DNA of 46,074 nucleotides. It comes from Demequina sp. Its GTDB lineage: Bacteria; Actinomycetota; Actinomycetes; Actinomycetales; Demequinaceae. How positions within the stretch are numbered: position 1 is the first letter of the stretch; every line of letters starts with the position of its first letter. The stretch spans positions 1-46,074 of the forward strand of contig NZ_JADQBF010000036.1 of NCBI RefSeq assembly GCF_016278775.1. Reading direction: 5' to 3'. The position numbers and the translations under genes were made by a program. Shown in pieces: positions 34,133 to 46,074 of the stretch. Below the pieces are notes generated by a model, which saw only the letters and a list, made by a program, of their open reading frames with translations, was not told where the DNA came from and searched no databases.

Positions 34133-35134
34133 ATGGCCATCGTCGATTGCGCTGTCTACGTCGAGGGCGCGCGTGCACACGAGACCGTCAGTGTGGAAGA
34201 GGCGGTAGCGCGCGCCAAGCGCTCCAAGGGCTTCGCGTGGGTGGGGCTGTTGCGGCCGAGCGAAGAGGAACTGGACACCGTGGCCGAGGCCTTCGGGGTC
34301 CACGCCCTCGCGGTCGAGGATGCGAGAAAGGGCCACCAGCGCTCCAAGCTGGAGCGCTACGGCGAGAACCTGGCGCTCGTGGTGCGTGCGGCGCACTACG
34401 ACGAGACGACGGAGACCGTGGGTTTTGGCGACATCCACCTGTTCGTCACGCCAGCCGCTGTGGTGTCGATCCGCCTCGCCGACGAGCCCGACCTGTCCGA
34501 CGTGCGCGTGAGGCTCGAGAACGAGCAACCGCTGCTTGCGCACGGGCCCAACGCCGTGCTGTATGCACTTCTTGACCAGGTGGTCGATTCCTACGCTCCC
34601 GTTGTGGCGGGGCTTGAGAACGACATCGACGAGGTCGAAGACCAGATCTTTGCCGAGCAGGTTGCCCCCTCGGTGTCGCGGCGCATTTACGCGTTGCACC
34701 GGGAGGTCATTGGCTTTCAACGGGCCGTCGAGCCGCTCGGTGGCATGCTGGAAGAGCTCCGAGCCATCGCGGCGTCAGACGAGGCGGACATCGAATTGCG
34801 GCGCCACTTCCGCGACGTCCACGACCACGTCATCAGAGTGGCGGACCGGATCGAGAACTTCCGCTCCCTGCTCGACAACGCGCTCAGCACCCACCTGGCA
34901 CTTGTTGCGCATCGTCAGACCGAGGCGAGCCTCGCCCAGAACGAGCAGACCAAGATGATCTCCGCGTGGGCGGCCATCCTGTTTGCGCCGTCACTCGTGG
35001 GCACCGTCTACGGGATGAACTTTGCCCACATGCCGGAACTCCACTGGGTGTACGGCTACCCGCTCGCGCTGGGCCTGATGGTGGGTCTCAGCGTCACGCT
35101 CTTTGCCGTGTTCAAGAAGGCGAGGTGGATCTAG
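34133..35134 (+). CDS. corA: CorA-type Mg2+/Co2+ channel
   Basis: A 333-residue CorA protein. A large soluble domain is followed by a long stalk helix and two C-terminal helices. The selectivity motif GMN lies in TVYGMNFAHMPE; the family's MPEL loop is complete (AHMPELHWVYGYP). The end FKKARWI is the basic cytoplasmic tail. It passes Mg2+ as a pentamer. ATG 34133 has AGGAG 6 nt upstream. Its stop codon overlaps that of the convergent ribB gene in one CTAG. No riboswitch-like leader is evident. Confidence 0.94.
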   Translation: MAIVDCAVYVEGARAHETVSVEEAVARAKRSKGFAWVGLLRPSEEELDTVAEAFGVHALAVEDARKGHQRSKLERYGENLALVVRAAHYDETTETVGFGDIHLFVTPAAVVSIRLADEPDLSDVRVRLENEQPLLAHGPNAVLYALLDQVVDSYAPVVAGLENDIDEVEDQIFAEQVAPSVSRRIYALHREVIGFQRAVEPLGGMLEELRAIAASDEADIELRRHFRDVHDHVIRVADRIENFRSLLDNALSTHLALVAHRQTEASLAQNEQTKMISAWAAILFAPSLVGTVYGMNFAHMPELHWVYGYPLALGLMVGLSVTLFAVFKKARWI

Positions 35135-35790
35135 GCGGTGACGCCCGCCTGACGATAGCGGACCAACTCCGCGATCGAAATCTGCACCAAGCCGTGGGCG
35201 CGGGAGAAAGCTCGAAGCGACTCGCCGCGGAGCATCTCGCCGTCCTCGCCCGCAATTTCACAGATCACGCCAGCGGGTCGCCTTCCCGCAAGCACAGCCA
35301 AATCAATCGCAGCCTCGGTGTGGCCCGCCCGTTCCAGCACGCCGCCGGGAGCGGCGATGAGGGGGAAGAGGTGTCCCGGCCGCACCAAGTCCGCCGGGCC
35401 GGAAGCGGGGTCCGCGAGCACCCCCACGGCAACGGCGCGGTCGGTGGCCGAGATTCCTGTGGTGACGCCGCGCGCGGCATCAACTGACACCGTGAAGGCG
35501 GTGCGGAGTGCTTCACTATTGCGCACGACCATCGGCGGCAGTTCGAGGGTTTGGGCGCGGGCCGCCGTCACTGGGACGCAGATGAGCCCCCGACACTCAG
35601 TCATCATGAAGGCGATGACGGCGGCGGTGGCATCCTCTGCCGCGATGACCAGATCGCCCTCGTTCTCGCGTTCGGGGTGGTCGGTCACCACCACTGGCCT
35701 TCCCGCTGCGATGGCGGCAATGGCAGCCTCAACGCTTGCCGTCGTGTCCGTATCCTTGACGAGCGCGACACCTGCTGTGGACCCGAACAT
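35131..35790 (-). CDS. ribB: 3,4-dihydroxy-2-butanone 4-phosphate synthase
   Basis: A 219-residue stand-alone RibB. It converts ribulose 5-phosphate to dihydroxybutanone phosphate plus formate for riboflavin synthesis. Visible active-site motifs are DHPERENEGDL (acidic loop) and GHTEAAIDLA; FMMTECRGLICVP and RPGHLFPL are also family-typical. No GTP cyclohydrolase II domain is attached, unlike the usual fused RibAB of actinobacteria. ATG 35790 is preferred because GAGAGGAG lies 5 nt upstream. No FMN riboswitch is visible in the short upstream region. No other riboflavin genes are nearby, so it may be a second copy. Confidence 0.93.
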   Translation of the reverse strand: MFGSTAGVALVKDTDTTASVEAAIAAIAAGRPVVVTDHPERENEGDLVIAAEDATAAVIAFMMTECRGLICVPVTAARAQTLELPPMVVRNSEALRTAFTVSVDAARGVTTGISATDRAVAVGVLADPASGPADLVRPGHLFPLIAAPGGVLERAGHTEAAIDLAVLAGRRPAGVICEIAGEDGEMLRGESLRAFSRAHGLVQISIAELVRYRQAGVTA

Positions 35791-35893
35791 CGGGACTCCT
35801 CTCGTCGAAGAACGCGGCCACAAGTGTATGTGAGCGCTGCGATCGATCTGGCCGGGTGCCGGCGCCGACGGCAGTCGCCATCGCGGCACGCAA

Positions 35894-36286
35894 CTACACA
35901 GCGAAAGGCACCCCGCACTGCAGGATGACGTTGGAGAAGGCCGTGTCCTCTCCCGTGCGGATCACGAGGCGAGCGTCGCTCACCCTGCGCTTGAACTCCG
36001 CGTGGTCGATCCGCTCCGCCGGGGCGTCCAGGCGCGTGTCGATCCACTCGCCAGCGGGCCAATCGTCCGCTTGCTGTGAGACCCATGCTGCCTCGACCAC
36101 GATGTCGCCTAGCAGCGCATCGAGGACGTCGGTGAACCGAGGCGAACCGTACACAAGCGCCAGGTCGACGACCGGGACGTGGGCGGGCACAGGAAGCCCG
36201 GCGTCGGCAACGACGACGGTGTCGGTGTGCCCGAGCCGCGCGAGCGCGCCCGATAGCGGTGCGTTGATGATGCCGGTGCGCTTCAT
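35894..36286 (-). CDS. rbsD: D-ribose pyranase
   Basis: A 130-residue RbsD of usual length. Family motifs are MKRTGIINAPLSGALARLGH at the start (with the catalytic His20), VVADAGLPVP, and the end NVILQCGVPF. It interconverts pyranose and furanose forms of ribose so the kinase can act. ATG 36286 overlaps the rbsK stop by 4 nt, so both are read together from the rbsK promoter. Divergent from the sugar cluster on the plus strand. Confidence 0.94.
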   Translation of the reverse strand: MKRTGIINAPLSGALARLGHTDTVVVADAGLPVPAHVPVVDLALVYGSPRFTDVLDALLGDIVVEAAWVSQQADDWPAGEWIDTRLDAPAERIDHAEFKRRVSDARLVIRTGEDTAFSNVILQCGVPFAV

Positions 36287-37215
36287 GGGAGTTCCTCCGT
36301 CAGATCCGGGTACGACCCTTGTGTGCCGTGCCGTTGAACAGAAAATGCCGCGACCCGGTTGGCGACCTTGGCGGCGTCGCGCAGACCCGATCCCGAGGCG
36401 AGCTCCGCCGCGAGGGCGCCGATGAACGCGTCGCCAGCACCTGTCGTGTCAACGGGGGTCACGCGCCGCGCAGGCTCGTGCCACAGACCGTCCGCCGACT
36501 CCCCACCGATCACGCCCGCCGCGCCCAACGTGGTCAGCACCGACGGCACTCCGCGGTCGAGAAGGGCCGCCGTGATGGCGCGCGCAGTGGCCACGATGTC
36601 GGCGTCGTCATCTCCGGCCGGAGCATCGCCGCCTAGCAAGTCGAGCGCTGCGGCCGCCTCATGCTCATTGACCACGAGGGGGTCAGCGGCGCGGAGCGTC
36701 ATGGGGGAGAAGTCGCCGCTGGGAGCGGCGTTGAGCACCACGCGCGCACCGTGAGACGCCGCAATAGATGAGGCACGATCGGTGGCTTCCATCGGAATCT
36801 CGCCTTGAAGGACGCACACTTTGGAGGCGCCAATGGCATCTCTCGCGGCGTCCACGAGGTGCGCATCGACGCGGGCATTCGCACCCGGACTAACGGTGAC
36901 GGTGTTCTCACCAGAAGCGGCCACCATGATGACCGCGAGCCCCGTCGATCCGGGGAGTTGCCGCACGTGGTCCAGGTTGACTCCCGACGCGCCGAGCGCG
37001 GAGAGCGCGACAGCGGCGTCGTCCTGGCCCACGGCGCCCACAAGGGAGACTGCCGCGCCTCGGCGGGCGGCGGCGACCGCTTGATTCGCGCCTTTGCCTC
37101 CAGGGAGGTACGCGGGATCGCCAGCAGCGATCGTTTCGCCTGGCGACGGATGGCGGTCGATCTGCAGCACTTGGTCCACGTTGATGGAACCGACGACGAC
37201 GACGCTGTCTTTCAC
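36283..37215 (-). CDS. rbsK: Ribokinase (PfkB family)
   Basis: A 310-residue sugar kinase. The start VVVVGSINVDQVLQIDRHP, the GGKGANQAVAAARRG signature and the C-terminal DTTGAGDAFIGAL (catalytic Asp in GAGD) identify ribokinase. It phosphorylates ribose at O5. GTG 37215 was chosen because AGGAG lies 6 nt upstream; a longer frame from 37326 would run into the promoter region. Coupled to rbsD. Its promoter faces the sugar-cluster promoter, so a common regulator is possible. Confidence 0.94.
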   Translation of the reverse strand: MKDSVVVVGSINVDQVLQIDRHPSPGETIAAGDPAYLPGGKGANQAVAAARRGAAVSLVGAVGQDDAAVALSALGASGVNLDHVRQLPGSTGLAVIMVAASGENTVTVSPGANARVDAHLVDAARDAIGASKVCVLQGEIPMEATDRASSIAASHGARVVLNAAPSGDFSPMTLRAADPLVVNEHEAAAALDLLGGDAPAGDDDADIVATARAITAALLDRGVPSVLTTLGAAGVIGGESADGLWHEPARRVTPVDTTGAGDAFIGALAAELASGSGLRDAAKVANRVAAFSVQRHGTQGSYPDLTEELP

Positions 37216-37242
37216 GAAACACTCCTGCCTGGGTTGACATCC

Positions 37243-37271
37243 ACGATAGGGCGGCCTAGATTGATCGACAA
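37243..37271 (-). promoter_or_regulatory. rbsK-rbsD promoter
   Basis: On the minus strand TTGTCG (37271-37266), 17 nt, TATCGT (37248-37243). The start site would be near 37236, giving a leader of about 20 nt with AGGAG before GTG 37215. Confidence 0.6.
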
Positions 37272-37322
37272 CGCATTCAGTATAGAATAAAAATTCTGAA
37301 ATCGCATTGATCAACGTTGATC
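37261..37322 (+). promoter_or_regulatory. Kinase-cluster promoter with LacI-like palindrome
   Basis: A promoter candidate TTGATC (37261-37266), 16 nt, TAGAAT (37283-37288) points toward the FGGY kinase gene. Two dyads overlap it: AGAAT-AAAA-ATTCT (37284-37297) and GATCAACGTTGATC (37309-37322), a perfect 14-bp palindrome with a central CG as in LacI-family operators. The latter lies at the expected transcript start and just before the kinase start. A repressor there could act as a roadblock. Confidence 0.6.
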
Positions 37323-37339
37323 TCATGGTGGAGGCAAAG

Positions 37340-38812
37340 GTGGCTGTACCGGAAGGGCCGTTCGTCCTCGCGCTCGATCAGGGTACGACGAACACGAAGG
37401 CCTTGCTCGTCGACGCGTCGACGCACGCGATCGTGGCTTCCGGTGCTCACCGTGTTGACATCTCTTACCCCGCTGCAGGATGGGTCGAGCAGAACGCCGA
37501 TGACATCTGGAATTCCGTGCTCGGTGCAGTGGCGGAGTGCCTGGCGGATCACCAGGGCGTGCCCATCATGGCAATCTCGATTTCCAACCAGCGCGAGTCC
37601 GTCGCGATCTGGGACGCAGCGACGGGTGCCGCGCTCGGCCCGGTGCTCGGTTGGCAAGACGCGCGCACCTCCGCAGTGTGTGCGGGTTTGTCCGCCCACG
37701 CACCCCAGGTGGCCAAGCACACGGGACTCGGTCTCGACGCGATGTTCTCCGCGCCCAAGATGCGGTGGTTACTTGACAATGTCGATTCTGCTCAACCCGC
37801 GCGCTTTGGCACGATCGACACTTTCCTCGTAAGCAGGTTGACAGGCGAGTACCTTGCCGAGGCAGGCAATGCTTCCCGCACGATGCTGTTCGACCTGGAT
37901 TCTCTCGACTGGAACGGGGAGCTCGCGGAAATCTTCGGCGTGCCCGTCGGCGGCCTTGCGCCCATCGCTCGCTCCGATGCGGGCTTTGGGGTCACTCGCG
38001 GGGAAGGCGCCATTCCCGCGGGAATCCCGGTGGTGTCTGTCATGGCGGACTCGCACGCGGCCCTCTACCTTCATTCACGCGGACGCCTGGGGGAGGGCAA
38101 AGCCACCTATGGCACGGGATCCTCCGTCATGGTCAACAGCCCGCGCGTGGGGACGGAGGCCACAGGCATCGCCACCACGCTTGCCTGGCTCGTCGAGTCG
38201 CCCAGTTATGCCAAGGAGGGCAATGTGCTCGCCTCTGGCGCCGCTCTCGCGTGGGCGGCGGAACTTCTGACGCAAGGAGACGTCGCCGCGCTCGGAGCCT
38301 TGGCCTCTGAAACCACGGCGAGTGCTGTGAGCCTGGTGCCAGCCTTCTCTGGCCTTGGCGCTCCGTACTTCGACAGGGACGCCGTCGGTGTGCTCACGGG
38401 CCTCACGGGGGCCACCACCGGTGCGCAGATCGCACGAGCAGCGTTTGAAGCGGTCGCCCACCAGGTGGCGGACGTAGTTGAGGCGATCGAGAACGACGGC
38501 GTGACCGAGATTGCGGGCTTGAGCGCCGACGGGGGAGCGACGGCCTCACCGCTACTCATGCAGTTGCAGGCCGACCTGTTGGGCAAGCCTCTGCGGGTGT
38601 CCGACGTGCCAGAGGCATCGGCGCTGGGCGCCGCTCTGCTTGCCATGCACGCCGAGGGTGTCGCTGAGCACGCCTCGAGCAATCGCTACTCGACGCGCAC
38701 CATTGCGCCTGAGATGTCTGACGAACGACGGCGCGAAGCGCGCCACCAGTGGCGACTCGCGGTAGCGCGATCGCGAGGACAGTCCGTTTCGGACTGGAAG
38801 GAGCAAGGATGA
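37340..38812 (+). CDS. FGGY-family sugar kinase (apulose-kinase candidate)
   Basis: A 490-residue carbohydrate kinase of the FGGY family. The phosphate-binding start FVLALDQGTTNTKALLVD, then ISISNQRES and GWQDART, are typical of the glycerol/xylulose kinase group; the C-terminal half has GATYG-like KATYGTGSSVMVN and LSADGGATASPLLMQ. GTG 37340 is chosen because GGAGG lies 5 nt upstream and eight residues before the first strand is normal; ATG 37325 is the alternative. It is first gene of a cluster with a ribose-type transporter, an isomerase and a split transketolase, which suggests it phosphorylates a branched or pentulose sugar such as D-apulose. Substrate not proven. Confidence 0.88.
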   Translation: MAVPEGPFVLALDQGTTNTKALLVDASTHAIVASGAHRVDISYPAAGWVEQNADDIWNSVLGAVAECLADHQGVPIMAISISNQRESVAIWDAATGAALGPVLGWQDARTSAVCAGLSAHAPQVAKHTGLGLDAMFSAPKMRWLLDNVDSAQPARFGTIDTFLVSRLTGEYLAEAGNASRTMLFDLDSLDWNGELAEIFGVPVGGLAPIARSDAGFGVTRGEGAIPAGIPVVSVMADSHAALYLHSRGRLGEGKATYGTGSSVMVNSPRVGTEATGIATTLAWLVESPSYAKEGNVLASGAALAWAAELLTQGDVAALGALASETTASAVSLVPAFSGLGAPYFDRDAVGVLTGLTGATTGAQIARAAFEAVAHQVADVVEAIENDGVTEIAGLSADGGATASPLLMQLQADLLGKPLRVSDVPEASALGAALLAMHAEGVAEHASSNRYSTRTIAPEMSDERRREARHQWRLAVARSRGQSVSDWKEQG

Positions 38813-39477
38813 CGTCGCCCATGTCCGCACGCACCAAGACGCCGTGGTGGCGTACTTCTCGTGCTGTCCTCACCGCCGCGTTGGCGTTCCTCGTGGTCCT
38901 GATGTTTGTGGACACCACGTTCGACAGCGGTGACGGCGACGTGCCCGCAGACACTGCGGTGGAGTACGCGAAGCTCAACTATGAAGAGTTCATCGTGCCA
39001 GGGCTCGTAGAGCGTGCCAGGCCCGTCCAGGAACTCGTCGCGGACATCCTGGCCGACCCGCAGGCAGCGGGCGAAGAGTTCGGACGACGCGAAGATGATG
39101 GGAAGCCTTTCAGCTATGCCGTGGCCGCCACTGGGGTTGTCACGGAGGGCCCGTTTGGCGAGGTGGGGCTCGACGTCGACGGTATGCCAGGCGGGATCAC
39201 GGTGGGTGTCTCCATTCCGCCCCTCGGCTCCGCGCCAGGCTTGCGAGACGCGGGCACCGAGTTGACGTTTGGTGACTTCGTGAATCAGACGGAGTACCAG
39301 CGGGTCGCCGTCGAAATCAACAACTTGGCGGCCGAGGGCGTCTTCGCTGACCTCGATCTCACCACGATGATGGGCGAGCAAATCACCGTTGTCGGAGCGT
39401 TCACCTGGTCCTCTGAAACGGGCGGTGAGGTCACCCACGTGTCGATCATGCCCGTCTCGATAGAGGAGGGCTCATGA
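38809..39477 (+). CDS. DUF2291 family membrane-anchored protein
   Basis: A 222-residue protein with one N-terminal membrane helix (about 20-40) and an extracytoplasmic domain. DUF2291 features include AVEYAKLNYEEFIVPGLVER and the end VTHVSIMPV. This family occurs with ribose/xylose-type ABC transporters, and most members are lipoproteins. Here I see no lipobox Cys. ATG 38809 overlaps the kinase stop by 4 nt and has AAGGAG upstream; the stop overlaps the ATPase start. It probably assists the transporter, perhaps in substrate delivery. Confidence 0.82.
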   Translation: MTSPMSARTKTPWWRTSRAVLTAALAFLVVLMFVDTTFDSGDGDVPADTAVEYAKLNYEEFIVPGLVERARPVQELVADILADPQAAGEEFGRREDDGKPFSYAVAATGVVTEGPFGEVGLDVDGMPGGITVGVSIPPLGSAPGLRDAGTELTFGDFVNQTEYQRVAVEINNLAAEGVFADLDLTTMMGEQITVVGAFTWSSETGGEVTHVSIMPVSIEEGS

Positions 39478-41042
39478 CCGCGGTCGCAGAGCCGGTGTCA
39501 CAGTCGATCACCCGTGGCGAGGTGGTACTGCGCGCGGAGCAGGTCGCCAAGGTGTACGGCGGCACCCATGCGCTACGGGGCGTCGACTTCGACGTCAAGG
39601 CGGGTGAAGTGACCGCCCTGATCGGTGAGAACGGTGCTGGAAAGTCAACGCTCATGAAGATCCTGTCGGGCGTGGAACAGGCGAGCGCGGGAACCGTCTA
39701 CCTCGACGGAGAGCCCGTGAGCTTCTCCGACTCTTCCGAGGCGCGCGAACGGGGCGTCGCGATCATTCACCAGGAACTCAACCTGTGCCAGAACCTCTCG
39801 ATCGCGGACAACATCTTCCTGGCCAGGGAGCGCACCCGCGGTGGGATGGTCGACTTCTCCGCCCAGGAGACCGAGGCCGCGCGCTTCCTTGAACGTCTCG
39901 AAGAACCCCTCAACCCCAAGACGCTCGTCGGAGACCTGCGTCTTGGTCAACAACAGTTGGTGGAGATTGCCAAGGCGTTGGGCGAAGAGGCGCGGGTGCT
40001 CATCATGGACGAGCCCACATCGGCGTTGTCTCACCACGAGGTGCAGATCCTCTTCAGGGTCGTGCGCGATCTCGCATCGCGAGGAGTGGCCATCGTCTAC
40101 ATCTCGCATCACCTCGACGAGTGCCTGGAGATTGCGGACACGGGCATCGTGCTACGGGACGGCCTCGTGGTGGCGAGCGCAGCGATGAAGGACGTGGACC
40201 TGTCCTGGATCGTGACCAACATGGTGGGTCGCGAAGAAGGCGCACTGTATTCGCCGATGGCGTTTGATGCTGGCGACACCGTGCTGTCGATCCGCGACCT
40301 GGTGGTGGCCGATCCCGACAGCCCCGGCCGGCTCGCGGTCAACGGCGTCAGCCTTGACCTGCACGAGCGCGAAGTGGTGGGTGTCTTTGGCCTGATGGGC
40401 GCTGGCCGCACAGAGCTGCTGGAAGCGCTCGCGGGCCGGAACAAGGTGCTGTCCGGCCAGGTGCTGCTCGACGACGAGGACCTGAGCAACATGGCGGTCT
40501 CTGAGCGCATCGCGCGCGGACTGATTCTGGTCCCTGAGGATCGGCAGCGAGACGGGCTTGTGTCGTCGCTGAGCGTCGGAGCCAACACCGCGCTCGCGGC
40601 CATCAATGACTTCGTCAGCAGATTCTTCGTCTCGAAGGCACGAGAGCGCGAGGCTGTGACCGAGATCGGCGCGCAAGTGCGAGTCAAGGCCTCCGGGCTC
40701 GATGCCCCGATTGGCTCCCTGTCAGGGGGAAACCAGCAGAAGGTCGTCATTAGCAAGGCCCTGCTGACCCACCCGCGGGTGCTTGTGCTCGACGAGCCAA
40801 CCCGCGGAATCGACGTGGGAGCGAAGGCCGACATCTTCTCGCTGATGGCCAAGCAGGCCCGCGTCGGATGCACGGTGCTCTTTGCCACGAGCGAGGCGGG
40901 CGAGGTCCTCCACGCAAGCGACCGAATTCTGGTGATGGCGCGCGGCGTGGTGGTCGCAGAACTTGACCCTCGCAAGACCACCCGAGAAGAGCTGATGGCG
41001 CTCGCCGACACCTCGTCGACGCCCACAAAGAATGAGGAGTGA
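39474..41042 (+). CDS. Sugar ABC transporter ATP-binding protein (RbsA type, double)
   Basis: A 522-residue tandem ATPase. The first half has Walker A GENGAGKST (51-59), signature-like LRLGQQQLVEIAKAL and Walker B VLIMDEPTSAL. The second half has a degenerate Walker A (FGLMGAGRTELL), as usual in RbsA/XylG, but a full LSGGNQQKVVISKAL signature and VLVLDEPTRGIDVG. It powers import of a monosaccharide together with the permease and binding protein. Starts overlap the DUF2291 stop by 4 nt. Confidence 0.95.
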   Translation: MTAVAEPVSQSITRGEVVLRAEQVAKVYGGTHALRGVDFDVKAGEVTALIGENGAGKSTLMKILSGVEQASAGTVYLDGEPVSFSDSSEARERGVAIIHQELNLCQNLSIADNIFLARERTRGGMVDFSAQETEAARFLERLEEPLNPKTLVGDLRLGQQQLVEIAKALGEEARVLIMDEPTSALSHHEVQILFRVVRDLASRGVAIVYISHHLDECLEIADTGIVLRDGLVVASAAMKDVDLSWIVTNMVGREEGALYSPMAFDAGDTVLSIRDLVVADPDSPGRLAVNGVSLDLHEREVVGVFGLMGAGRTELLEALAGRNKVLSGQVLLDDEDLSNMAVSERIARGLILVPEDRQRDGLVSSLSVGANTALAAINDFVSRFFVSKAREREAVTEIGAQVRVKASGLDAPIGSLSGGNQQKVVISKALLTHPRVLVLDEPTRGIDVGAKADIFSLMAKQARVGCTVLFATSEAGEVLHASDRILVMARGVVVAELDPRKTTREELMALADTSSTPTKNEE

Positions 41043-41043
41043 G

Positions 41044-42180
41044 ATGGCCCAGACAGCCACAGCGGCGGCGGAACCGACGTTTGCCGATCGACTTCGCAAG
41101 GGAATCCTCGGTGACCGCACCGCAGGCGAGTTCCTGATGGACCAGCGAGCATTTGTCGCGCTCATTGTGCTGGTGATCGTGTTCTCGCTGCTCTCGGATG
41201 CGTTCTTGACGCCCACGAACATGATCCTCATGACCAAGCACGTCGCCTACAACGCCATCCTTGCGCTCGGCATGCTGCTCGTCATCGTCACGGGCGGCAT
41301 CGACTTGTCTGTGGGATCCACCGTGGGCCTGTCCGGCATCGTCGCCGGCGTGATGTTGCAGGGATGGGAACTGTCGGTGTTCGACACGACGGCCTACCCC
41401 GCCGTATGGGTCGTGGTCATCATCTCGCTTGCCGTGGGCGGCCTGGTGGGTGCGCTCAATGGGTGGATGATCACGAGATTCAATGTGGCGCCGTTCATTG
41501 CGACGCTCGGAACGCTGTACATGGCGCGCGGTGCGGCGCTGCTCATCTCCGATGGTGCGACGTTCCCACGGCTCCAAGGTGAGGCGGAACTCGGCAACAC
41601 CGGTTTCTCGTTCATCGGCGTGGAGCGGCCGCTCGGGATCCCGACCGCGATCTGGATCATGGTGATCTTTGCCATGCTGATCGCCTTGCTCGTGACGCGG
41701 ACCCGCTTCGGTCGCTGGTTGTACGCGACCGGCGGCAACGAACGAGCCGCCGGGCTCTCAGGCGTCCCAGTGGCCTCCGTGAAGATGCGCGTCTACATCA
41801 TCTCTGGTGTGTGCGCAGGCATGGCTGGCCTCATCATCGCGTCCGAACTCACGTCCGCCGCCCCTCAGACGGGGCAGACGTTCGAGCTCAACGCGATCGC
41901 CGCCGTCGTGATTGGCGGTGCGTCCCTCTCGGGTGGACGCGGAACCGTGAAGGGCGCGCTGATTGGCGCGTTCGTGATCGGCTTCCTCTCCGACGGGCTT
42001 GTGCTCGTTGGAGTCTCAAGCTTCTGGCAGACAGTAATCAAGGGACTCGTGATTGTTCTCGCGGTGATCCTCGATCAAGGCCAGGAGCGCCTCAAGAAGG
42101 CGAGGGCTGCTGCCCAAGCTGCACAAAGCGTCAGGCGTGAGCTTGATGCCCGTCATGCCGAGGCATCCGCCAAGGCTTGA
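41044..42180 (+). CDS. Sugar ABC transporter permease (RbsC type)
   Basis: A 378-residue membrane protein with eight to ten helices. The conserved LVIVTGGIDLSVGSTVGLSG, GALNGWMITRFNVAPFIATLG and AIAAVVIGGASLSGGRGTVKG segments identify the ribose/xylose permease family (BPD_transp_2). ATG 41044 lies 1 nt after the ATPase stop, with GAGGAG upstream. The C-terminal tail is long and charged (about 40 residues rich in Lys, Ala, Arg), which is more than most RbsC proteins have. Confidence 0.95.
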   Translation: MAQTATAAAEPTFADRLRKGILGDRTAGEFLMDQRAFVALIVLVIVFSLLSDAFLTPTNMILMTKHVAYNAILALGMLLVIVTGGIDLSVGSTVGLSGIVAGVMLQGWELSVFDTTAYPAVWVVVIISLAVGGLVGALNGWMITRFNVAPFIATLGTLYMARGAALLISDGATFPRLQGEAELGNTGFSFIGVERPLGIPTAIWIMVIFAMLIALLVTRTRFGRWLYATGGNERAAGLSGVPVASVKMRVYIISGVCAGMAGLIIASELTSAAPQTGQTFELNAIAAVVIGGASLSGGRGTVKGALIGAFVIGFLSDGLVLVGVSSFWQTVIKGLVIVLAVILDQGQERLKKARAAAQAAQSVRRELDARHAEASAKA

Positions 42181-43218
<1,038 letters not shown>

Positions 43219-43227
43219 TGCGGCGCT

Positions 43228-43265
43228 GCGGTGGTCCGAGAGGGCGATTCCTCTCGGGCCACCGC
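43228..43265 (+). terminator. 16-bp hairpin after the binding-protein gene
   Basis: GCGGTGG-T-CCGAGAGG (43228-43243) pairs with CCTCTCGG-G-CCACCGC (43250-43265) over a 6-nt loop; the single T/G position can wobble-pair. No T-run follows. It may be a terminator or a partial stop protecting the transporter mRNA. Confidence 0.65.
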
Positions 43266-43298
43266 CCCCAAGCCTCCACTCATGCGGTAGTATGGGGT

Positions 43299-43319
43299 TA
43301 TACAGAATCGGAGTTGAAT
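43299..43319 (+). promoter_or_regulatory. Possible internal promoter/operator of the enzyme genes
   Basis: An AT-rich stretch in an otherwise GC-rich gap holds TATACA (43299-43304) and CAGAAT (43303-43308), with a GGAG at 43309-43312 before ATG 43324. CAGAAT equals the reverse of ATTCTG in the kinase promoter dyad (37293-37298), so both units may share a regulator. No clear -35 box was found. Confidence 0.35.
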
Positions 43320-43323
43320 AGAA

Positions 43324-44313
43324 ATGTCAGATCCAGTCTTTGGTGCGGGGTTGTGGAACTTCGCGAGTTACGTTGATCGCTACGCCACCGACGGGTACGC
43401 AGAGCCCGTTTCGACGCTCGAGCAGATTCGCTTGGCAGGTGAAGTGGGTGGATTGTCCTTTGTTGATCTCAACTTCCCGTTCTCCCACGGCGCGACCATC
43501 GAAGACGTGCAGGCCGCGCTTGACACCGCCAACCTCAAGGCGATCGGCGTCACGCCGGACATCTACATGCGCCGCTTTGGCAAGGGCGCGTTCACCAACC
43601 CCGACCCCGCAGTGCGCGCGCAGGCGATCGACCTCCTTCACGAGGCCGCCGAGGCCGTGCGGACGCTCGGAGCCAGGTACGTCAAGGTATGGCCCGGTCA
43701 AGACGGCTGGGACTACCCCTTCCAGGTCAATCACCACGACGTCTGGAAACTTGCCAAGGACGGCATGCGTGAGATTGCCTCCGCGCACCCAGATCTCAAG
43801 TTTGTGATCGAGTACAAGCCGCGTGAGCCGCGCGTGAAGATGCTGTGGGACTCCGCCGCTCGGTCAATTCTCGGCATTCAAGAAATTGGCCTCGACAACA
43901 TCGGCGTCCTGCTCGACTTTGGCCACGCGCTCTATGGCGGCGAGTCGCCAGCAGACTCCGCACAGATGCTGATCGATCACGATCTGCTGTGGGGCATGGA
44001 CGTCAACGACAACCTCCGCAGTTGGGACGACGACCTCATGGTCGGCACGGTCCACCTGACCGAGGTGTTCGAGTTCTTCTACACCCTCAAGATCAACAAT
44101 TGGGAGGGCGTCTGGCAGCTCGACCAGTTCCCCTTCCGCGAGGACACCGTGCAGACGGCGCGCGCCTCGCTTCGGTTCTTGCGCGCGCTGAACCGCGCCC
44201 TCGACGAGCTCGACATCGACGCCCTGCGCGAAGCCCAAGCACGCCAAGATGCGATCACCGCGAACATGCTGGTCCAGGACGCGCTGTTGTCGTGCATGCG
44301 AAAGGACGACTAA
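43324..44313 (+). CDS. Xylose-isomerase-like TIM-barrel protein (apiose-isomerase candidate)
   Basis: A 329-residue TIM-barrel of the sugar phosphate isomerase/epimerase family. Likely metal ligands are the Glu in VIEYKPREP, Asp in [12 protein letters not shown], Asp in [10 protein letters not shown] and Glu in HLTEVFEF. Such enzymes isomerise aldoses and ketoses with a divalent metal. Together with an FGGY kinase and a split transketolase it matches D-apiose isomerase of the transketolase route, but L-sugar or tetrose isomerases are alternatives. Its stop shares a base with the next gene start (TAATG). First gene of the second unit. Confidence 0.82.
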
Positions 44314-45290
44314 TGGCGATGGCTTCCGTCGTTCCGATGGACGCCAACGCGGGGCTCGTCCACCCGGTGGATACCACCCTGCTCGCGGCGCCGGACCGCG
44401 AGATTGAGGTGTTCTCCCGTGTCTCACCCGATGCCAGTCGCGAGGAGGTCCTGGAGACGCTTCGGCGAGCATCGCTCGAGGTAAGACGCCGGGGCATTCA
44501 GACCGTGGGAGCAGCCAAGGCGGGTCACATCGGAGGAGAGTTCTCCATCTCCGACGCGCTCGTGACTCTCTATCTCGCTGTGCTCAATGTGAGCCCGGAG
44601 CAGGTGGAGGCAGGCGATCCAGATCGCGACCGTCTCGTCCTGAGTAAGGGGCATGCCGCCAATGCGCTCTACACAGTGCTTGCCGCTGCGGGTTTCATCT
44701 CGCCGCAGGCCCTGCGCACCTTCTTGCAGCCGGAGTCGATGCTCAACGGCCACCCGGCCCGCAACAAGGTCAAGGCTGTCGAGGCGAACACGGGACCACT
44801 CGGGCACGGGCTACCCATCGCCGTCGGAATGGCGATCGCTGGCGAGCTTGACGGCTCAGATCGCCGCACGTTCGTGCTCCTTGGCGATGGCGAGCTGCAA
44901 GAGGGGTCAAACTGGGAGGCACTCATGACGGCGGGATCGAGACACTTGTCACGCCTCGTCGCACTCGTGGACCGCAACCGGCTTCAGCAGGGTGCCGCCG
45001 TCGCCGATACCAACGACCTCGAACCCCTGGCAGACAAGTTGCGCGCCTTCGGCTGGGAGGTGCTTGAGGTCGACGGGCATGACCACGGAGCATTGCTGGA
45101 TGCGTTCGAGTCAGCCCCTGCCGCTTCGGGAAAGCCGACGTTCATCATCGCCCACACGGACAAGGGCCACCCGGTCAGCTACATGCGAGACAACGTCGCA
45201 TGGCACCACAAGGTGCCTACGCCAGAGCAGGTGACCCAAGCGCTAGAGGAGCTGGATGCCCTCATGAACTCCAAGGAGACCGCTCAGTGA
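44313..45290 (+). CDS. Transketolase subunit A (N-terminal, thiamine-diphosphate binding)
   Basis: A 325-residue protein equal to the N-terminal part of transketolase. The thiamine diphosphate motif is GDGELQEGSNWEA (GDG, then Asn). KAGHIGGEFSISDAL, LSKGHAANALY and GPLGHGLPIAVGMA are family motifs with catalytic His residues. The pyrimidine-binding half is encoded by the next gene, so the enzyme is a two-subunit form, as in apulose-4-phosphate transketolase (AptA/AptB). ATG 44313 follows AAAGGA; ATG 44319 is also possible. A longer frame from 43845 is a shadow of the isomerase gene. It would split a ketose phosphate by transferring a two-carbon unit. Confidence 0.92.
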   Translation: MAMASVVPMDANAGLVHPVDTTLLAAPDREIEVFSRVSPDASREEVLETLRRASLEVRRRGIQTVGAAKAGHIGGEFSISDALVTLYLAVLNVSPEQVEAGDPDRDRLVLSKGHAANALYTVLAAAGFISPQALRTFLQPESMLNGHPARNKVKAVEANTGPLGHGLPIAVGMAIAGELDGSDRRTFVLLGDGELQEGSNWEALMTAGSRHLSRLVALVDRNRLQQGAAVADTNDLEPLADKLRAFGWEVLEVDGHDHGALLDAFESAPAASGKPTFIIAHTDKGHPVSYMRDNVAWHHKVPTPEQVTQALEELDALMNSKETAQ

Positions 45291-46074
45291 CCGCAACAAC
45301 CGAGACCGCGCTCTTCGACTGTCGAGACGCGTGGGCCACCGCTCTTGCAGAGGTGGCCGCGGCAGACGAGCGCGTTGTCGCCGTGGTCAATGACTCGGTG
45401 GGATCGTCAAAGTTGGTCGCCTTCCAAGAGCAATTCCCTGGCCGCACCATCAACGTCGGCATCGCAGAGCAAGACATGGTCGGCGTGGGTGCTGGCCTTG
45501 CCAACGGTGGAAGGATTCCGTTCGTCTCAGCGGCCGGCTGCTTCCTGGTGGCAAGGGCCCTTGAGCAGATCAAGGTGGATGTCGCGTACTCGCGTTACCC
45601 CGTGATCCTGGTGGGGCAGTCGCCCGGCGTCGCCTACGGCGATCTGGGCCCTACCCACCATTCGATCGAAGACTTCACGTGGTTGCGCGCGATCCCGGGA
45701 ATGACAATTGTGGCGCCCGCAGATCCGATGGAGACGACCCAGGTGGTGAGGTGGGCAGCGTCCGCCTCGATTCCGGTCTACATTCGCGTTTCTCGCATGG
45801 GAGTGCCTGCCGTATATCCGGAGGACTACCAGTTTGTCCCCGGCAAGGCGGTCACCCTGCGTGAGGGCGATGACGTGACCCTGATCGGAACGGGCACTAC
45901 CGTGCACCGTACGCTCGCCGCTGCCGAAGTCCTCGCGGGCGAAGGCATCAGCGCGCGCGTCCTGTCCATGCCGACCATCAAGCCGCTCGACGTCGAGGCC
46001 GTCGTCGACGCTGCGCGTCAGACGAAGGGAATAGTCACCGTCGAGGAGGCACTCGTCACGGGACTCGGAGGTGC
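45287..46074 (+). CDS. Transketolase subunit B (C-terminal part), cut by window end
   Basis: The frame opens at GTG 45287, overlapping the subunit A stop by 4 nt, and runs past the end of the window. Visible are 262 residues of the transketolase pyrimidine-binding and C-terminal domains: NVGIAEQDMVGVGAGLANGG with the catalytic Glu, SPGVAYGDLGPTHHS with the paired His, and the C-terminal domain start DDVTLIGTGTTVHRTLAAAE. It should complete the active site of subunit A. The missing part is about 50 residues by comparison with the family. Confidence 0.92.
   Translation, partial: MTATTETALFDCRDAWATALAEVAAADERVVAVVNDSVGSSKLVAFQEQFPGRTINVGIAEQDMVGVGAGLANGGRIPFVSAAGCFLVARALEQIKVDVAYSRYPVILVGQSPGVAYGDLGPTHHSIEDFTWLRAIPGMTIVAPADPMETTQVVRWAASASIPVYIRVSRMGVPAVYPEDYQFVPGKAVTLREGDDVTLIGTGTTVHRTLAAAEVLAGEGISARVLSMPTIKPLDVEAVVDAARQTKGIVTVEEALVTGLGG

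Follow-up and report, generated by a model that had tools for sequence, protein, structure and literature searches.

The window analysed here is a stretch of 46,074 nucleotides from Demequina sp. and represents the entire contig C58 of a 2.52 Mb genome in 115 contigs. Open reading frame (ORF), profile and structure-library searches identified eight plus-strand genes from 37325 to 46074, running from a sugar kinase through the second subunit of a transketolase, which together form a probable operon for D-apiose catabolism. The first gene encodes an FGGY-family kinase, probably a D-apulose kinase of the AplK type (37325–38812, PF00370/PF02782). Its start was set at the ATG at 37325, and a longer ORF with a TTG start runs from 37307. 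It is followed by genes for a DUF2291 protein, a predicted periplasmic lipoprotein associated with the importer (38809–39477, PF10054, E 2.4e-29), an RbsA-type sugar-importer ATPase (39474–41042, PF00005, with matches below cut-off to the NCBIfam xylose/ribose ATPase models), an RbsC-type permease (41032–42180, PF02653) and an RbsB-type sugar-binding protein (42211–43218, PF13407, solved relatives 5ibq and 4ry0). The operon continues with a xylose-isomerase-like TIM barrel, probably a D-apiose isomerase of the ApsI type (43324–44313, PF01261), and with transketolase subunit A, which carries the thiamine diphosphate domain (AptA type, 44313–45290, PF00456), and subunit B (AptB type, 45287–46074, PF02779/PF02780). 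The initial annotation had listed this gene set in a single direction, and all eight genes were confirmed, although its start at 37340 falls just inside the kinase gene. It had also described start-stop overlaps, which is largely correct. Five of the seven junctions do overlap (−4, −4, −11 with the first RbsC start, −1 and −4), but the other two leave gaps of 30 and 105 nucleotides.

Transketolase B is truncated at the edge of the contig. The end of the window shares an exact 55-base overlap with contig C42 (L159), which completes the transketolase B frame and continues with a SorC-type regulator carrying the PF04198 sugar-binding domain. This break is therefore an assembly edge. Within the window, the earlier label of a complete cluster is not strictly correct, one subunit being truncated there and finished on C42.

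The isomerase matched PDB entry 3ktc with an E value of 1.7e-157, and the next solved relatives were xylose isomerases at 7e-18 and weaker. The isomerase of Pectobacterium carotovorum differs little from 3ktc and shares 67% identity with the window isomerase. In alignment A1, acidic and histidine residues were invariant, at positions that presumably correspond to the xylose isomerase metal site. In a tree of 97 rows, all 30 enterobacterial rows, Pectobacterium included, formed one starred clade nested among actinobacterial rows, and the window sequence clustered with G290 and two Promicromonosporaceae metagenome-assembled genomes. This placement suggests that the TIM-barrel protein is an ortholog of the Pectobacterium D-apiose isomerase. 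A grouping with enzymes for another sugar, which the initial annotation had named as the outcome that would speak against its reading, was not seen for the isomerase.

The best solved relatives of the binding protein, 5ibq and 4ry0, represent a Rhizobium etli protein with 58% identity to that of the window. We take the ligand of 5ibq to be alpha-D-apiose and that of 4ry0 to be ribose. The R. etli gene (p42f) lies with ATPase, permease and DUF2291 genes near oiaX, and the window protein is thus related to one from an apiose/apionate cluster. DUF2291 genes are annotated in both the E. coli SE15 and the R. etli p42f clusters.

For the kinase, the top hidden Markov models and the solved relatives in the PDB were GlpK, with scores below the GlpK cut-offs. 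A second kinase of the same type is encoded on contig C22 of this genome and clusters with E. coli GlpK. The second kinase tree was reduced from 85 to 61 rows by dropping E. coli XylB, FucK and 22 near-copies. It separated seven GlpK sequences from 54 apiose-cluster kinases with a split support of 100/100, and the window kinase was sister to that of Serinibacter arcticus. A glycerol kinase identity was rejected, given that the window kinase falls among apiose-cluster kinases and the GlpK-grouping kinase is the separate one on C22. The best solved relative of transketolase A was 6yak, the N-terminal component of a split-chain transketolase. This subunit is 77% identical to its S. arcticus counterpart and 43% identical to that of P. 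carotovorum. Within a comparison set of apiose-cluster pairs and the genome's own one-chain transketolase, the two subunits were 43–77% identical to the pairs from six such clusters and 33–34% identical to the one-chain enzyme. With subunit B completed on C42, a two-subunit transketolase adjoins the isomerase and the kinase.

In the transketolase route of apiose catabolism, apulose-4-phosphate and glyceraldehyde 3-phosphate are converted to D-xylulose 5-phosphate and dihydroxyacetone phosphate. In the Demequina operon, the RbsB-A-C importer with its DUF2291 protein would import D-apiose and, probably, D-ribose as well. The isomerase would convert D-apiose to D-apulose, the FGGY kinase would phosphorylate it to D-apulose 4-phosphate, and the two-chain transketolase would pass a two-carbon unit on to glyceraldehyde 3-phosphate, with the two products named above. 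The SorC-type regulator on C42 probably senses the sugar or a sugar phosphate. The placement of the isomerase, the binding protein and the kinase, together with the same gene set in P. carotovorum, argues for a D-apiose operon of this isomerase, kinase and transketolase type in a Demequina-type actinobacterium, with an importer that probably also serves ribose. Judged from sequence comparison, we give this reading a probability of about 0.88. The main point of the initial annotation, growth on apiose, thus holds as a prediction from the isomerase, the binding protein and the shared Pectobacterium gene set, and the present analysis extends it by the rest of transketolase B, the SorC-type regulator, the connection to ribose and an apparently mosaic ancestry. 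The operon exemplifies an apiose pathway already described, with nothing new in kind, and through it the route gains clear actinobacterial members.

The Pectobacterium apiose cluster was reportedly described by Carter et al. in 2018. Like the window, this cluster (MetaCyc PWY-8089) combines an isomerase, an FGGY kinase, a split transketolase, an RbsABC-type importer and a SorC-type regulator. Locus L136 of P. carotovorum, from a strain other than the growth-tested one, holds the sugar-binding protein (SBP), RbsA, RbsC, transketolases A and B (TktA and TktB), the FGGY kinase, the isomerase and SorC. The window differs in gene order, in kinase and transketolase identities of only 42–43%, and in its divergent rbsK-rbsD-ribB genes; DUF2291 was not found in the Pectobacterium loci by tblastn. 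According to PMC13001218, D-apiose served as sole carbon source for P. carotovorum WPP14 and for strains of E. fergusonii and E. coli that carry apiose clusters; the paper gives the names aplK, aptA and aptB, plus apsI in Pectobacterium, the Escherichia cluster being without apsI. By the same paper, the E. coli SE15 cluster (ECSF_RS02670-02715, L030) resembles the window in its DUF2291 protein, importer, FGGY kinase and aptA/aptB, but holds two short-chain dehydrogenase/reductase (SDR) oxidoreductases in place of apsI, whereas the window operon encodes the isomerase and lacks an SDR gene.

Like the window, the p42f cluster of R. etli CFN 42 (L202) has an importer of this type together with a DUF2291 gene, and it encodes the 5ibq/4ry0 binding protein. 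Unlike the window, it continues downstream with genes that include the one for OiaX, a 3-oxo-isoapionate-4-phosphate decarboxylase, and no transketolase is annotated in the stretch examined. Neither the eight genes of the window operon nor the three divergent ones include an apiose dehydrogenase, lactonase or OiaX of the oxidative apionate route; the search extended to these genes and not to the rest of the genome. The gene order of the window recurs in S. arcticus (L086), which also has rbsD-rbsK divergent from a kinase-DUF2291-A-C-SBP-isomerase-TktA-TktB-SorC unit; the kinase and isomerase rows of G183/L195 are identical to those of this locus. Its isomerase is, however, only 72% identical to that of the window (85% for G290), and no RibB match lies in its fetched stretch. 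A limited literature search, PMC6302742 included, found no account of an actinobacterial apiose operon, although one may still have been published.

Counts of named loci refer to the closest loci, the best 80 of 444 confirmed relatives, of which 50 are non-enterobacterial and 30 enterobacterial; several end at contig ends, and SBP matches below 50%, RbsA below 42% and transketolase below 40% identity were not counted. L074 and L090, duplicates of L031 and L036, were omitted from family clustering and trees but kept among the 80, and the 30 enterobacterial loci were excluded from family clustering. Because the kinase, TktA and TktB occur in the fetched flanks of 48 of the 50 non-enterobacterial isomerase loci, the association of these genes goes beyond chance. 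SorC was present in 44/50, and the fetched flanks held the importer in 31/50, rbsK in 11/50 and rbsD in 6/50. Five loci (L077, L081, L086, L092 and L123) have rbsK divergent from and adjoining the kinase as in the window, so that apiose and ribose genes facing each other, probably with a shared importer, form a recurrent arrangement. With the window genome included in both counts, the isomerase was found in 26 of 396 sampled genomes of the order at E ≤ 1e-70, and a strong match (E below 1e-160) in 7 of the 44 genomes of the genus. The enterobacterial loci whose fetched flanks lack a transketolase pair were L095, L103-L108, L110, L114, L116, L118-L120, L127, L131, L133, L134, L138, L147 and L151, where the isomerase may serve a different route or have its partner genes elsewhere.

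The genes of the operon differ in their closest relatives. In a gene-by-gene identity comparison of 12 loci, the kinase (58%, tied with L077), both transketolase subunits (77/77%), RbsA (74%) and DUF2291 (66%) were closest to S. arcticus, the isomerase to G290, and the binding protein (81%) and permease (86%, tied with L092) to the genus-mate G026. The kinases of six other Demequina genomes formed a separate clade. Since different genes point to different closest relatives, the operon resembles a mosaic more than a unit inherited as a whole.

Three minus-strand genes diverge from the operon. A ribokinase-type RbsK (36283–37215, PF00294) scored 265.5 bits against TIGR02152, below the cut-off of 299.65; its probable start is a GTG at 37215, and its ORF extends to 37326. 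An RbsD-type sugar mutarotase follows (35894–36286, PF05025, E 4e-35) and was the sole such match in the genome. Next comes a stand-alone RibB, a 3,4-dihydroxy-2-butanone 4-phosphate synthase (35131–35889, PF00926, E 3.7e-78). Contig C102 carries a second PF00926 match. Stand-alone RibB-type genes recur near apiose clusters in Actinomycetota and Sinorhizobium mexicanum, in 6/50 non-enterobacterial loci; besides the window, they were noted at L031, L034, L035, L027, L079, L081, L087, L091 and L098.

The probable starts of rbsK and the kinase lie 109 nucleotides apart, and the shared intergenic stretch (37216–37324) holds promoter-like sites at 37234–37294 and a palindrome. All three sigma-70-like sites found in 36000–46074 fall within this gap, compared with a mean of 1.2 (standard deviation 1.1) in shuffled sequences. 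As shuffles already give 1.2, the number of sites is weak evidence, and their position is only suggestive. The perfect 14-base palindrome GATCAACGTTGATC at 37309–37322, just ahead of the kinase start, is a possible operator. Of the 14 other loci listed, none showed it ahead of the kinase, and a search by eye, without a control, for a conserved operator upstream of the kinase found the commonest 8-mers in at most 18 of 57 upstream stretches.

Several observations weigh against the apiose reading. Curated NCBIfam models gave no equivalog, with the kinase, the isomerase and the transketolase all below cut-offs. The PDB table labels 3ktc a xylose isomerase and 5ibq, whose ligand we take to be apiose, a ribose binding protein. 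The isomerase tree was built with a quick method. No transketolase pair occurs in the fetched flanks of 20/30 enterobacterial isomerase loci, and only 9/30 have all three enzymes nearby; the pair is likewise absent from the fetched flanks of two non-enterobacterial isomerase loci, L037 and L124. Because the pair is missing near so many isomerase loci, the isomerase alone is no proof of the route. The kinase, the other enzyme that the initial annotation had wanted to see apart from enzymes for another sugar, does stand apart from GlpK in the tree, but a constraint joining four enterobacterial apiose kinases to GlpK was not rejected (p-AU 0.341 in the approximately unbiased test), so orthology to the characterised apulose kinase leans more on gene order. 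The transketolase comparison set contained no characterised split transketolases of other pathways. Finally, no PF13204 (GH140-type) apiosidase was found in the window genome, and in the genus only one of 44 genomes has one. An operon for a different sugar, such as another branched or short-chain aldose or a pentose handled by the same enzyme classes, would account for the sub-threshold curated models and for the low kinase and transketolase identities to Pectobacterium. It would leave unexplained an isomerase with 67% identity to P. carotovorum in one clade, a binding protein with 58% identity to the R. etli neighbour of oiaX, and the same gene set in a species that, according to PMC13001218, grows on apiose, and we consider it very unlikely. 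That the operon is a decayed or incomplete remnant is more improbable still, as the transketolase B frame that runs off the contig end is completed across the C42 overlap and followed by SorC, as in many relatives.

The adjoining ribose genes raise a more serious question. RbsK and RbsD next to an RbsABC importer are of ribose-operon type, and the importer and rbsK-rbsD might constitute a ribose system into which apiose enzymes were inserted, with apiose entering by another transporter or as a minor substrate. In the genus, the binding protein (E ≤ 1e-40) occurs in only 2 of 44 genomes, the window and G026, both among the five genomes with RbsD and both with rbsK-rbsD alongside, and five of the seven isomerase-positive genomes lack it. 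In G026, where the importer lies opposite rbsK-rbsD, the apiose enzymes make up a unit of their own. By RbsB numbering, the ribose-contact residues also appear conserved in alignment A2, with a single exception. Against this, the window importer sits within the apiose operon, rbsK is absent from the fetched flanks of 21 of the 31 importer-bearing non-enterobacterial loci, and the R. etli relative is encoded near oiaX, where the stretch examined has no annotated rbsK. We therefore regard a ribose system proper as unlikely, though worth serious consideration. Under the apiose reading, the divergent position of rbsK-rbsD means that the importer need not be apiose-specific. It probably serves both D-apiose and D-ribose, and RbsK and RbsD would process ribose brought in by the same importer.

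Since no PF13204 apiosidase was found in this genome, the release of bound apiose is a testable gap. A PF13204 apiosidase-like gene occurs at L037 (11602–12948) beside the kinase, isomerase and SorC, in a stretch where no transketolase pair was found. A nucleoside-hydrolase-fold protein was found in 15/50 non-enterobacterial apiose loci (L034, L035, L077, L088, L145 and others), and the window genome has its copy apart from the operon at C114:223-1263 (L161). Two of three scanned members clearly passed the PF01156 cut-off and the third just reached it. The AlphaFold model of the L088 member had a mean pLDDT of 85.5, and all 50 Foldseek rows listed were nucleoside/riboside hydrolases. Across the 396 genomes of the order, the isomerase was present in 26, the nucleoside-hydrolase-fold protein (E ≤ 1e-60) in 30 and both in 12 (Fisher p 1.7e-8, not corrected for relatedness), with the two genes on the same contig within 20 kb in 9 of these 12. 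Within the genus, a member at E ≤ 1e-20 was found in 15/44 genomes, comprising all seven isomerase-positive and eight negative ones. Members with at least 73% identity to the query, which comes from an isomerase-positive genome, occurred in six genomes, all isomerase-positive.

More distant members adjoin, by eye, sugar importers and genes resembling GH3, GH42, GH78 and GH1 glycosidases, which suggests a glycosidase that frees apiose. A cytosolic enzyme of this fold could release D-apiose from imported plant apiosides, here in trans from C114:223-1263, and would then represent an O-glycosidase belonging to a superfamily known for acting on nucleosides. We consider this unlikely. The protein accompanies rbsK, being present in 8 of 11 rbsK loci versus 7 of the 39 others (p 0.0012, 50 loci), which fits ribose release from nucleosides instead; 18 of the 30 order genomes with the protein also lack the isomerase. 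A literature search linking nucleoside hydrolases with apiose or rhamnosidase returned nothing relevant. Separately, a second importer permease family, CUT1-like by eye, lies beside apiose clusters in 10 of 59 clustered loci (L033, L037, L077, L085, L088, L094, L101, L117, L125 and L132). Nine of these ten also have a nucleoside-hydrolase-like gene in the locus, and the permease hints at uptake of larger apiose-bearing glycosides.

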